Made by a program: the position numbers and the translations under genes | The notes under the pieces: model-generated | Told to the model about the DNA's origin: nothing | Databases searched by the model: none | What the model saw: the letters and a program-made list of their open reading frames with translations, nothing else | Source: Burkholderiaceae bacterium | Lineage (GTDB): Bacteria; Pseudomonadota; Gammaproteobacteria; Burkholderiales; Burkholderiaceae_E | DNA: 64,000 nt | Assembly (NCBI GenBank): GCA_024637155.1 | Contig: JAGXFR010000022.1 | Coordinates: 62,001-126,000, forward strand | Direction: 5' to 3' | Part shown: positions 48,517 to 54,313 of the stretch, piece by piece | Layout of the letters: every line of letters begins with the position of its first letter | Position numbering within the stretch: position 1 is the first letter of the stretch

Positions 48517-49326
48517 CTAGGCGCTCGCCGCTGCCAGGTCCGGGCAGGGCGGGGAATTCGCCGAGACGGTGAGCACGTCATGCCCGGTCTCGGTGACTAG
48601 CACCGTGTGCTCCCACTGCGCGGACAGGCTGCGATCGCGGGTGACGATCGTCCAGCCGTCGCCCAGCTGGCGGACGTGGCGCCGGCCGGCATTGATCATC
48701 GGCTCGATCGTGAAGATCATCCCGGGAAGCAGTCGCACGCCGGTGCCCGGGGTCCCGTAGTGCAGGATCTGCGGATCCTCGTGGAAAGAGCGCCCGATTC
48801 CGTGTCCGCAGTACTCGCGCACGACGGAATAGCCGTTGGCGAGCGCGTGGCGCTGGATCACCGCGCCGATGTCACCCACGGTCGCACCCGGGCGCACCTG
48901 TTCGATGCCCAGCCACATGCACTCGTAAGTCACCTCGGTGAGGCGGCGGGCGGCGATTGAAGGATTGCCCACCAGGAAGGTTCGGCTGGTGTCCCCGTGA
49001 AAGCCGTCCTTGATCACGGTGATGTCGATGTTCACGATGTCCCCGTCCTTGAGCGCGCGCTCGCCCGGGATGCCGTGGCAGATCTGCTGGTTCACCGAGG
49101 TGCAGATCGACTTGGGGTAGGGCGGGTAGCCCGGCGGGGCGTAGTGCAGGGGCGCGGGAATCGTCCCCTGCACCTCGGTCATGTAGAGGTGGCACAGCTG
49201 ATCGAGTTCGCCGGTCGTGACGCCCGGGACGACCAGCGGTGCGATGTAGTCGAGAACCTCGGAAGCGAGCCGGCCGGCGACGCGCATCGCGGCGATCTCG
49301 TCGCCTTTCTTGATGATGATGGACAT
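48517..49326 (-). CDS. map: type I methionine aminopeptidase
   Basis: Removes the initiator methionine from nascent proteins; 269 residues. Metal ligands are visible in NIDITVIKDGFHGDTSRTF (two Asp), HGIGRSFHEDP (His), TIEPMI (Glu) and WEHTVLVT (Glu). The protein begins MSIIIKKGDEIAAMR. The ATG at 49326 has no Shine-Dalgarno; a perfect TATAAT ends six bases upstream on the same strand, so the message may start on the ATG. Upstream in-frame codons up to 49386 are not homologous. Confidence 0.95.
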   Translation of the reverse strand: MSIIIKKGDEIAAMRVAGRLASEVLDYIAPLVVPGVTTGELDQLCHLYMTEVQGTIPAPLHYAPPGYPPYPKSICTSVNQQICHGIPGERALKDGDIVNIDITVIKDGFHGDTSRTFLVGNPSIAARRLTEVTYECMWLGIEQVRPGATVGDIGAVIQRHALANGYSVVREYCGHGIGRSFHEDPQILHYGTPGTGVRLLPGMIFTIEPMINAGRRHVRQLGDGWTIVTRDRSLSAQWEHTVLVTETGHDVLTVSANSPPCPDLAAASA

Positions 49327-49332
49327 GATAAG

Positions 49333-49338
49333 ATTATA
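49333..49338 (-). promoter_or_regulatory. consensus -10 TATAAT six bases before map ATG
   Basis: On the minus strand the sequence reads TATAAT, CTTATC, then the map ATG. The expected transcription start is the A of the ATG. The -35 region overlaps the small dyad at 49351-49363 and is a poor match. Confidence 0.5.
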
Positions 49339-49350
49339 GGTTAACCGCCT

Positions 49351-49388
49351 GTCCGTACCGGACCCATGGGCATTGCCTGACGGCAATG
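49351..49388. promoter_or_regulatory. two adjacent dyads in the divergent map-rpsB region
   Basis: GTCCG/CGGAC around TAC (49351-49363) and CATTGCC/GGCAATG around TGAC (49371-49388) are both perfect and lie side by side, about 160-195 bases upstream of rpsB and just upstream of the map -10. They could be protein-binding sites or hairpins in a long rpsB leader. No strong rpsB promoter was recognised; TTGACG at 49432 has no -10 partner. Confidence 0.35.
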
Positions 49389-49547
49389 TCGTGCCCGCGA
49401 GGAACGGCGGTTGAAATCGCGCGCACCACGCTTGACGGGTGCTGCGGGCACTTTCCCTGCCAGGCGGCGGGGGAGTTCGCGGTTGATGCCGGTTCTGCCG
49501 GCGTAGCGTGGCGCGTCAGTCCCAACCCAGACAGGAGTGTAGCAACC

Positions 49548-50294
49548 ATGTCCGTAACCATGCGGCAGATGCTGGAAGCGGGTGTCCATTTCGGCCACCA
49601 AACCCGCTTCTGGAACCCCAAGATGGCCCCGTACATCTACGGCCATCGCAACAAGATCCACATCGTGAATCTCGAGAAGACGCTCGCGTGCTTCAACGAC
49701 GCGATGAACTTCATCGGCAAGCTCGCGGCCAATCGCGGGACGGTGCTCTTCGTGGGCACCAAGCGCCAGGCGCGCGAGATCATAGCCGAGGAAGCGGCAC
49801 GTGCGGGCATGCCCTACGTCGACCAGCGCTGGCTCGGCGGCATGCTCACCAACTTCAAGACGGTCAAGGGCTCGATCAAGCGGCTCAACGACATGGATGC
49901 GATCGTTGCCGAGAGCGGCACCGAGCGCATGTCGAAGAAGGAATCGCTGATGTTCGAGCGTGAGCGCGAAAAGCTCAACAAGAGCCTGGGCGGGATCAAG
50001 GACATGGCAGGGTTGCCCGACGCGATCTTCATGATCGATGTCGGCTTCCACAAGATTGCGGCCACGGAGGCGCGCAAGCTCGGCATTCCCATCGTCGCCG
50101 TGGTCGACACGAACCACTCGCCCGATGGCGTGGACTATGTGATCCCGGGGAACGACGACTCGGGTCGCGCGATCCGGCTCTACGCCCGTGCGGCCGCCGA
50201 CGCGATCCTCGAAGGGCGCCTCGCGGCGCTGCAGGAAGTGGTCGAGACCGAGGGCGAGGAATTCGTCGAGATCGACGACTCCGGCGAGGAATAG
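49548..50294 (+). CDS. rpsB: 30S ribosomal protein S2
   Basis: Small-subunit protein that binds late in assembly and recruits S1. It has 248 residues, beginning [20 protein letters not shown] with the HFGHQ signature and later [11 protein letters not shown] and [29 protein letters not shown]. The ATG at 49548 has AGGAG twelve bases upstream. The acidic C-terminus ([14 protein letters not shown]) is usual. It is first in the rpsB-tsf-pyrH-frr operon. Confidence 0.97.
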
Positions 50295-50332
50295 GCCGGA
50301 ACGGGGCATCGCAGCCTCTTGCGTGAACAACC

Positions 50333-50355
50333 GGGGCTGCGCGACAGCCCCTTTT
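50333..50355 (+). terminator. terminator/attenuator between rpsB and tsf
   Basis: GGGGCTG (50333-50339) pairs with CAGCCCC (50345-50351) around CGCGA, followed by TTTT. It has textbook intrinsic-terminator form but lies inside the rpsB-tsf operon, so partial termination setting the S2 to EF-Ts ratio is likely; an attenuating terminator at this place is known in E. coli. Confidence 0.7.
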
Positions 50356-50409
50356 GCTGATTGAAACGGTCGCGCGGCGCGCGACTGAACGTTTCCCGGA
50401 GGAAGAATC

Positions 50410-51297
50410 ATGGCGGAAATCACCGCGGCACTGGTCAAGGAACTGCGCGAGAAAACCGACGCGCCGATGATGGAATGCAAGCGCGCGCTCGCCGAAGCGC
50501 AGGGCGATCTGGAGCGGGCGGAGGAACTGCTGCGCGTCAAGCTCGGCACCAAAGCCGGCAAGGCGGCCTCGCGCATCACGGCCGAAGGGATTGTGGCGAT
50601 CCTCGTCGCCGAGGACCGCAAACTGGGGGCGATCGTGGAAGTGAACTGCGAAACCGACTTCGTCGCCAAGAACGACGAATTCAGGGCGTTTGCCGCCGGT
50701 CTGGCGGCGCTGGTGCTCGCCAAGGATCCGGCCGATGTGGCCGCGCTCGCGGCGTTGCCGCTGGGCGGATCCACGGTCGAGGCCGTGCGCACCGGGCTGG
50801 TGGGCAAGATCGGCGAGAACGTCTCGGTGCGGCGCTTCGAACGGGTCGTCGCACAGGGAATGCTCTCGTCATACATCCATGGCGGCTCGAAGATCGGCGT
50901 GCTGGTCGATCTGGCCGGCGGTGACGCCGAACTGGGTCGCGATCTGGCGATGCAGATCGCCGCGACCCGGCCCAAGTCGATCGCCGCCGACGGGGTGGCG
51001 GAGAGCGACATCGAGCGCGAGCGCTCGGTCGCCCGGCAGAAGGCTGCGGAGTCGGGCAAGTCGGCCGAGATCGTCGCGAAGATGGTCGAGGGCTCGGTGC
51101 AGAAGTTTCTCAAGGAAGTCACGCTGCTGGGCCAGGTCTTCGTCAAGGACGACAAGCTCTCGGTCGAGCAGTTGCTGAAGTCCAAGTCGGCGCAGGTCAA
51201 GGGGTTCAAGCTCTACGTCGTCGGCGAGGGGCTGGCCAAACGGCAAAACGACTTCGCCGCGGAAGTGGCGGCGCAGGCGGCCGCGGCCGGGCGCTAG
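50410..51297 (+). CDS. tsf: elongation factor Ts
   Basis: Guanine nucleotide exchange factor for EF-Tu; 295 residues. It opens [20 protein letters not shown], with the TDAPMM(D/E)CKRAL signature, and has the core [13 protein letters not shown] that inserts into EF-Tu. GGAGGAA precedes the ATG. It lies downstream of an attenuator-like hairpin and upstream of the structured pyrH leader. Confidence 0.97.
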
Positions 51298-51318
51298 GGC
51301 GCGCGTGCCCGCAACGGG

Positions 51319-51375
51319 GGAGCGCAAAGCGCGGATAATGCGCTCCATCCACCGGCATTGTGAAACGGAGCGCAT
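51319..51375 (+). promoter_or_regulatory. three-part alternative-pairing element in the pyrH leader
   Basis: GGAGCGCA occurs at 51319-51326 and again at 51367-51374, and its exact complement TGCGCTCC lies between them at 51339-51346. The central segment can pair with the first copy (8 bp, 12-base loop) or with the second (9 bp including 51338/51375, 20-base loop). The second copy contains the pyrH Shine-Dalgarno GGAG and abuts the GTG start at 51376, so the two hairpins would leave the site open or closed. A -10-like GATAAT (51334-51339) sits inside the first hairpin; a promoter there would produce mRNA without the switch. Confidence 0.5.
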
Positions 51376-52131
51376 GTGAATCCATCCCAGGCAGTGGAGC
51401 AGGTCGATCCCGTCCCGGCACCCGCCGTCTACCGGCGCGTGCTGCTCAAGCTTTCGGGCGAAGCGCTGATGGGGCCCGACTCGTATGGGATCCATCGCGC
51501 CACGATCGAGCGCATGGTGGCCGAGATCGCCGAGGTCTCGGGGCTGGGCGTCCAGCTGGCGATCGTGATCGGTGGCGGCAACATCTTCCGCGGGGTCGCC
51601 CCCGGAGCCACCGGCATGGACCGGGCGACGGCCGATTACATGGGGATGCTCGCCACCGTGATGAACGCGCTCGCGCTGCAGGATGCGCTGCGCCAGGGCG
51701 GCGTCGAAGCGCGGGTGCAGTCGGCGCTCAAGATCGAACAGGTGGTGGAGCCCTACATCCGTCCCAAGGCGCTGCGCTACCTGGAAGAAGGCAAGGTCGT
51801 GATCTTCGCCGCGGGCACGGGCAATCCCTTCTTCACCACGGATACGGCCGCTGCGTTGCGGGGCGCCGAGATCGGTGCCGAGATCATCCTCAAGGCGACG
51901 ATGGTCGACGGCGTGTATTCCGCGGATCCGAAGAAGGACCCCAGCGCGACACGCTATGCGCGGATCAGCTTCGACGAGGCGATCAGCCGCAATCTGCGGG
52001 TGATGGACGCCACCGCCCTCGCGCTGTGCCGCGACCAGCGCCTGCCGGTCAACGTCTTCTCGATCCGCAGGGAGAATGCGCTGCGCAGGGTGATTGCAGG
52101 GGAGGACGAGGGCACGCTGGTCCATCTCTGA
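51376..52131 (+). CDS. pyrH: UMP kinase
   Basis: Bacterial hexameric UMP kinase of the amino-acid-kinase fold, phosphorylating UMP to UDP and allosterically set by GTP and UTP. It has 251 residues. It shows [13 protein letters not shown], the glycine loop [10 protein letters not shown], and [19 protein letters not shown]. The start is a GTG at 51376, five bases after GGAG, lying in a stretch that can be hidden by base pairing. The first 18 residues are an unconserved Pro-rich leader. Confidence 0.96.
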
Positions 52132-52164
52132 CCGGCGGCTTTCGGATTCGAAACAGGGGGAATC

Positions 52165-52725
52165 ATGACTGTAGCTTCGATACATGACGGCGCCGCCAAC
52201 AAGATGGAGAAGTCGCTCGAGGCGCTGCAAAGCAATCTGACCAAGATCCGCACCGGGCGCCCAACGCCGGGCCTGCTCGATCATGTCCATGTCGACTACT
52301 ATGGCTCGAGCGTGCCGATCAGCCAGGTAGCCAACGTCACGGTGATCGACGCGCGCACGCTGGGCGTCTCGCCGTGGGAAAAGAAAATGGTCGGCGTGAT
52401 CGACCGGGCGATTCGCGAGTCCGATCTCGGGCTGAACCCCGCCACGATGGGCGAACTGATCCGGGTCCCGCTGCCGCCCCTCTCGGAGGAGCGTCGCCGC
52501 GAGCTGACGAAGGTGGTGCGCAGCGAGGGTGAACACGCCAAGGTGGCGGTTCGCAACCTGCGGCGCGACGCGATCGAACACCTCAAGAGAATGCTCAAGG
52601 ACAAGGAGATCTCCGAGGACGAGGAGCACCGCGCGCAGGACGAAATCCAGAAGCTGACCGACCATTTCGTCTCCGAGGTCGACAAGGTTCTCGCGGCCAA
52701 GGAGCAGGAGATCATGACGGTCTGA
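52165..52725 (+). CDS. frr: ribosome recycling factor
   Basis: Splits post-termination ribosomes together with EF-G; 186 residues, the family length. It begins with the helical domain ([32 protein letters not shown]) and has the conserved [15 protein letters not shown] and [10 protein letters not shown] stretches. A G-rich site precedes the ATG. It follows pyrH by 33 bases, as in most bacteria. Confidence 0.97.
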
Positions 52726-52730
52726 ACGCC

Positions 52731-53492
52731 ATGACGCCGTACACCAGCAGCACGACTTCCATCCCCGGGCATGGCGAGGTTCCGCGTCACGTGGCGATCA
52801 TCCTCGACGGCAACGGCCGCTGGGCGACCAAGCGGCTGCTGCCGCGGGTTGCCGGGCATGCACGCGGCGTCGACGCGGTGCGGGTCACGGTGGAGGAGTG
52901 CGCGCGGCGCGGCGTCGAAAACCTGACCCTGTTTGCGTTCAGCTCGGAGAACTGGCGTCGCCCGGCCGAAGAGGTGTCGGTGCTGATGAAACTGCTGCTC
53001 AAGGCGCTGACCAAGGAGGTCGCGAAACTGCACAAGAACGGCATCCGGCTGCGCATGATCGGGGATCTGAGCGCTTTTGAACCGCGCCTGCAGGAACTGA
53101 TTGCCGATGCCCAGCAGCATACGGCGCAGAACCGCCGGATGACGCTCACCATCGCGGTCAACTACGGGGGCCGCTGGGACGTGATCCAGGCGATTCGCCG
53201 CATGCTGCGCGAACGCCCGGAACTCGCCGCGACGCCCGATGCGATCGACGAAGCCGATTTCGCACCCTACCTCGCGCTGGGCGACACGCCCGAGCCCGAC
53301 CTGTTCATCCGCACGGGCGGTGAGCAGCGGATCAGCAATTTTCTGCTCTGGCACCTCGCCTACAGCGAGCTGTATTTCACCGATACCTACTGGCCGGACT
53401 TCGACGCGGCCGCCCTCGAGGCGGCCTTCGCCTCGTATCGCCGGCGTGAGCGCCGGTTTGGGCGCACCAGCGCCCAACTCGCGGCCGACTGA
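52731..53492 (+). CDS. uppS: undecaprenyl diphosphate synthase
   Basis: cis-Prenyltransferase extending farnesyl diphosphate to the C55 lipid carrier for cell wall synthesis. It has 253 residues. The catalytic Asp26 is in [22 protein letters not shown] and the C-terminal [20 protein letters not shown] are diagnostic. It starts five bases after frr; the stop overlaps the cdsA start by one base. Confidence 0.96.
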
Positions 53493-54313
53493 TGCTGCGC
53501 ACGCGCGTCGTGACCGCGCTCGTGCTGCTGGCGCTTTTCGCGCCGGCGATCTTCGTGCTGCCTGCGCCCGTGTGGGCCGTGCTGACGCTGCTGGCCGTCG
53601 CCGTCGCGGTTCATGAGTGGGTGACGCTGCTCGGATTCCAGCGCCGCAGCAGCGCGCTGGCCGCAGTGGGCTTCGGGCTGCTGGCGCTTCTCTGGCTGGT
53701 GGGCTTCGGAATCGAGCCGGCGCCCGCCGCAGCCGCCGCCCTCGGGGCCGCGGCCACGCTCTGGTGGGTGGTCGTGGCGCCGCTGCGCCTGGCCGGGCGT
53801 GACATCGGCGCGGGCGGATGGCCGGTTGCGCTCGTCTTGCTGCTGGCGTGCTGGAGCGCGCTGCTCGAACTGCGCTTTCAGGGCGGCGCTGCGCTGTTCG
53901 TCGCCATGGCAATCGTCTGGGTAGCCGACATTGCCGCCTACTCCGTCGGCCGGGCCTTCGGCCGGCGTCGCCTGGCGCCGTCGATCAGTCCCGGCAAGAG
54001 CTGGGAGGGCGCGATCGGCGGAGCCGTGGCGGTTGCGCTTGCCGGCATCCTGGCCGCCGGCATCCCGGCGCTCGGCGATAGCTTTCCGGCGTTGTTGGTC
54101 AATCGCCTGGGGGTGGCGGCTGCGGCGCTCCTGCTCGCCGCGCTGGCCGGGCTCTCGGTTGTTGGCGACCTGCACGAATCGCTGCTCAAGCGCCGGGCCG
54201 GCGTGAAGGACAGCGGGCGTCTGCTGCCGGGACACGGCGGCGTGCTCGATCGCGTGGATGCGCTGATTCCGACCATGCCCGCCGTGATGTTGCTCGACCA
54301 GCTGTTGCGATAA
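53492..54313 (+). CDS. cdsA: phosphatidate cytidylyltransferase
   Basis: Makes CDP-diacylglycerol from phosphatidate and CTP, the branch point of phospholipid synthesis. It has 273 residues with about eight membrane helices. Conserved elements are [12 protein letters not shown] and the family signature in the last 40 residues, [20 protein letters not shown] then LDRVDAL. It overlaps uppS and dxr by one base each, so translational coupling is likely. Confidence 0.95.

Follow-up and report, generated by a model that had tools for sequence, protein, structure and literature searches.

A probable sigma-70-type promoter of pyrH coincides with a repeat-and-complement pattern in a Burkholderiaceae bacterium

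The tsf-pyrH junction

The features considered here lie at the junction of tsf and the UMP kinase gene pyrH (Table 1). They were located within a single window, by which we mean the whole 64-kb stretch of DNA that was analysed. In the first-pass annotation, attention had been drawn to an 8-mer, GGAGCGCA, present at 51319-51326 and again at 51367-51374, with its exact complement between the two copies at 51339-51346; these positions and sequences were verified. Also confirmed was the downstream pairing of nine Watson-Crick pairs, 51338-51346 with 51367-51375, which abuts the GTG at 51376. The first copy and the complement together make an inverted repeat (51319-51346) whose 8-bp arms match perfectly and are separated by 12 bases; it straddles the -10 box and is a possible operator.

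The start of pyrH has peculiarities of its own. The sequence ATGTGA at 51374-51379 overlaps the GTG and consists of an ATG followed immediately by a stop, within reach of the Shine-Dalgarno sequence (SD); all four genus members compared have it, and initiation at the GTG might be influenced by it. Within the genus, pyrH encodes about 19 extra N-terminal residues (51376-51430) ahead of a conserved 10-residue segment, and across the family this extension varies widely in both length and sequence.

Table 1. Features at the tsf-pyrH junction, in window coordinates
Feature	Start	End	Strand	Remarks
Conserved 30-bp block (spacer, -10, discriminator)	51317	51346	+	90% invariant positions in four species; includes first copy and centre
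First copy, GGAGCGCA	51319	51326	+	Proposed release strand; in spacer of the proposed promoter
A/T tract	51326	51328	+	6-8 bases upstream of the -10 box; family-wide at such spacing
-10 box, GATAAT, of proposed pyrH promoter	51334	51339	+	Family-wide as [GCT]ATAAT
Centre segment, ATGCGCTCC	51338	51346	+	End of -10, and discriminator; in read-through RNA, 5' arm of the helix over the SD
Predicted transcription start	51347	51347	+	Placed from the -10 position, 8 bases downstream
SD (GGAG) and spacer, GGAGCGCAT	51367	51375	+	3' arm of the helix
pyrH (UMP kinase), GTG start	51376	52131	+	ORF of 251 aa, full length, 88-89% identical to genus relatives

How unusual the pattern appears depends on the scale at which it is judged. 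Both strands of the window together contain 17 occurrences of GGAGCGCA versus 8.7 expected, and an exact 8-mer triple spanning no more than 60 bases was found there in one single instance. Sixty dinucleotide shuffles of the window yielded a mean of 0.23 triples, with at least one triple in 11 of the 60; at about 0.23 expected per shuffled window, the triple is therefore not striking at window scale. When the 81-base stretch was shuffled by itself, a triple arose in 2 of 20,000 trials, for a site that had been picked by a reader from 64 kb. A perfect helix of at least 9 bp over the SD was observed at 2 of the 314 gene starts that a simple script identified in 412 kb of sequence from this genome. 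The repeat pattern is real and uncommon, and not beyond the reach of selective reading. Because the repeats lie mostly inside an apparent pyrH promoter, and because their pairing is not preserved in relatives, we regard the pattern as mostly ordinary.

Conservation within the genus

The genus alignment comprised the source species (G000) and three others (G001, G002 and G003), which share 79-80% DNA identity over 1.2 kb around the pyrH start. The proportion of positions invariant in the four species is 26% to the left of the conserved block and 47% to its right, and about 40% at the third positions of tsf and pyrH codons. A second stretch of conservation (83% invariant) covers the SD and the start. 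All four species carry the -10 hexamer at the corresponding place, and the block ends where the predicted +1 falls; position 51347 is A in the source species and G in the three relatives, a purine in every case.

A scan of the plus strand reported no promoter and no convincing -35 hexamer. The stretch from -36 to -31 falls outside the conserved block, and the family alignment shows no base enrichment at the distance expected for a -35. In Burkholderia cenocepacia, promoters have a -10 consensus of TAnAAT and only a weak -35 (PMC4603805); since many Burkholderiales promoters have a weak -35 (PMC4603805), a missing -35 is compatible with membership of the sigma-70 type. Promoters of the sigma-28 and sigma-32 types were considered and rejected; the spacing and the variable bases match neither. 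Within the genus alone, conservation extends to the left end of the block, GGGGAGCGC, which would form part of the promoter spacer. A plain promoter does not account for this, since no particular sequence is required there; one possibility is that this end represents half of an operator (the inverted repeat of 8 bp straddles the -10 box).

Compensatory change was sought in every pair of both alternative stems across the four species of the genus, and none was found. In G002, GGAGCGCAT has become GGAGCGAAT, with the uncompensated loss of one pair of the SD stem; in G003, GCGCTCC has become GCGCTGC, with the uncompensated loss of one pair from each of the two stems. Because only four genomes of the genus were compared, the zero count rests on few substitutions, namely the two uncompensated losses just described, of which one falls in the arm common to both stems, and one change from C-G to U-G. 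The losses in G002 and G003, which are changes of the kind that the first-pass annotation had itself named as contrary to its proposal, argue that pairing is not the selected property. Beyond the genus, family leaders showed no trace of the SD stem except unrelated shorter helices; among 24 family leaders, helices over the SD were rare and mostly unrelated to the discriminator.

The -10 motif in the family and the order

The family set consisted of 63 leaders, of which 47 had at least 45 searchable bases; gene starts and tsf stops of relatives were assigned by script, and the full 150 bases before pyrH were taken where the tsf stop was not located. The motif [GCT]ATAAT was present in 28 of the 47 tsf-pyrH gaps, as compared with a mean of 0.82 and a maximum of 4 after shuffling. 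Removal of redundancy left 19 leaders with the hexamer, phylogenetically non-independent, in all of which an A/T-rich pentamer occurs at -9 to -5 (background 10%) and position -7 is A or T. G/C predominates between this tract and ATAAT. This family-wide tract is unusual.

The -10 motif is retained in many genera of the family that have no SD helix, and in some genera no -10 is recognisable in the gap. In some genera of the family (leaders L014, L019, L020, L026 and L030), pyrH follows tsf almost directly, so that a separate promoter between them would have little space. The block pattern of the genus, searched ungapped, matched only G001-G003 in the family; G000 was missed because its spacer is one base shorter. 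The same pattern had no match in 250 genomes of the order, a sample without other members of the genus. In other Burkholderiales, a TAnAnT or BATAAT box was found in 40 of 69 sequences searched versus 11.8 after shuffling, and no A/T tract at the family spacing was found in their tsf-pyrH gaps.

In the source genome, BATAAT occurs at a density of 0.74 per kb upstream of genes versus 0.009 per kb in coding sequence, an enrichment of about eighty-fold for which base composition accounts in part; the reverse strand upstream of genes is nearly as rich. The fuller motif of A/T tract, G/C and ATAAT has 4 occurrences in the 3.2-Mb genome, against 1 for a reversed control. Judging from their translations, the other three genes so preceded encode an AsnC/Lrp-like regulator, an integrase-like protein and a response regulator, with no obvious common theme among them.

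Predicted folds

The folding energy of the full-length element was unexceptional (z = -0.51). In isolation, the SD hairpin is predicted to be stable (-16.8 kcal/mol, z = -2.75), and the upstream hairpin has an energy of -12.7 kcal/mol. The helix over the SD comprises 9 bp in G000 and 10 bp in G001. The minimum-energy folds of the G000 81-base stretch and of G001 place the first copy in a local pairing with GCGC at 51329-51332.

The predicted ensembles of the long RNA differ among species. The SD stem has a probability near 1.0 in G000 and G001; in G002, the upstream stem reaches 0.65 and the SD stem 0.33; in G003, the SD stem falls to about 0.1 and the upstream stem to 0. The winning stem is thus the SD stem in two species, the upstream stem in one and neither in one. 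For the long RNA of G000 and G001, the predicted probability that the SD is unpaired is 0.0, as against 0.27-0.44 for the short RNA, a partial opening. If the folds are as modelled, a conserved two-state switch should not give outcomes that vary in this way from species to species.

A promoter of pyrH

In our view the element is most probably a promoter of the sigma-70 type belonging to pyrH itself, with an ordinary ribosome binding site downstream. Promoter activity and the start site are what we infer; the conserved block, the family-wide -10 motif and the lack of covariation are direct observations on the sequences. RNA polymerase would recognise GATAAT at 51334-51339, aided by the family-conserved A/T tract in the spacer, and transcription would initiate near A51347, with the GC-rich centre segment serving as the promoter discriminator just upstream of +1. 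Given a start at about 51347, RNA from the pyrH promoter would therefore lack both the first copy and the centre, and the SD would be comparatively open in these primary transcripts. The first-pass annotation had remarked that initiation downstream of the first two segments could bypass the element, and comparison across the family supports this remark well.

Several properties are those of a Burkholderiales sigma-70-type promoter: the -10 hexamer, the GC-rich discriminator and a purine at the expected start. The position is also familiar, in that the element precedes an operon gene having a separate start in E. coli, where both read-through rpsB-tsf-pyrH-frr and separate pyrH-frr transcripts occur (PMC6131387). 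The element differs from such promoters in its lack of a recognisable -35, in its conserved spacer A/T tract and in the G-rich left end conserved in the genus. Transcripts reading through from rpsB-tsf would include the centre, and in G000 and one relative these would form the 9-10 bp helix over the SD. With the SD folded into a helix, little UMP kinase would then be made from the read-through RNA, as we propose; any such effect on translation is, like the promoter, deduced from sequence. The hiding of the SD in read-through RNA is probably incidental or recent.

Alternative explanations

The two-state RNA switch of the first-pass annotation, in which a pyrimidine nucleotide would cause the first copy to pair with the centre and thereby free the SD, now appears very improbable. 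The three blocks are indeed conserved in the genus and the isolated upstream hairpin is stable, but covariation supports neither stem, pairs are lost in two of the four species, the winning fold differs among species, and in the minimum-energy folds of G000 and G001 the first copy is engaged locally with GCGC. Outside the genus, the element was also not recognised in the family or in 250 genomes of the order. Nothing in the analysis points to a pyrimidine ligand; a scan of 49000-53500 against Rfam gave no match, even at E up to 1, and a search for RNA control of pyrH in the literature at our disposal found nothing. The resemblance to SD-sequestering riboswitches and thermosensors lies in the helix over the SD, but the pyrH leader has no conserved alternative structure, covariation, clue to a ligand or Rfam match. 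Of the earlier interpretation, then, the bypassing promoter is well supported, whereas release of the SD by the first copy is not, given the missing covariation and the inconsistent folds.

Better placed, though still unlikely, is an operator at the DNA level, with the inverted repeat GGAGCGCA-N12-TGCGCTCC around the -10 box binding a repressor or activator of pyrH. Its location on the promoter and its conservation in the genus are in favour, and the sequences on either side of the -10 show slightly greater complementarity when both come from one genome than when they are permuted across genomes (p = 0.04). Set against these, the repeat is imperfect in G003 and unrecognisable outside the genus. 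A regulon operator was rejected, as the exact inverted repeat proved unique in a genome-wide search and the relaxed form was not above control. Only slightly more credible, and still doubtful, is a silencing of read-through RNA, in which the genus has co-opted the promoter discriminator as an anti-Shine-Dalgarno sequence: rpsB-tsf read-through RNA would be silent for pyrH, only RNA from the pyrH promoter would be translated, and UMP kinase would be made solely from its own promoter. A precedent with exactly this layout is gene e of phage T4, whose long early RNA hides the SD while late promoters inside the 5' arm give an open RNA, a 100-fold effect (PMC3014915). At pyrH, too, the short RNA would come from a promoter that coincides with the 5' arm of the helix, and the SD would be hidden in the long RNA only (predicted unpaired probability in G000 and G001 of 0.0 versus 0.27-0.42 in the short RNA); a comparable drop in SD accessibility was seen at just 1.9% of 211 SD-bearing gene starts in the source genome. 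In contrast to gene e, pyrH is a bacterial housekeeping gene, its helix is found in just two of the four species and the effect is a predicted one. The helix would be populated to about 33% in G002 and 10% in G003, compensatory changes in the four species number zero, and the SD helices of the 24 family leaders are rare and mostly of other origin than the discriminator. By these models, silencing could act on read-through RNA only, and strongly in only two of the four species; it is a reasonable mechanism, weakly supported as a conserved function.

Implications

With the element read as a pyrH promoter and an ordinary ribosome binding site, the locus illustrates how, in a GC-rich genome, a conserved -10 box and discriminator can combine with an SD to take on the appearance of an RNA switch. 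A simple comparison separates the two, setting a family-wide -10 motif against uncompensated changes in the stems. Should silencing of read-through RNA nevertheless be true in this genus, it would let an essential nucleotide gene follow a ribosomal-protein operon without inheriting its level of expression.
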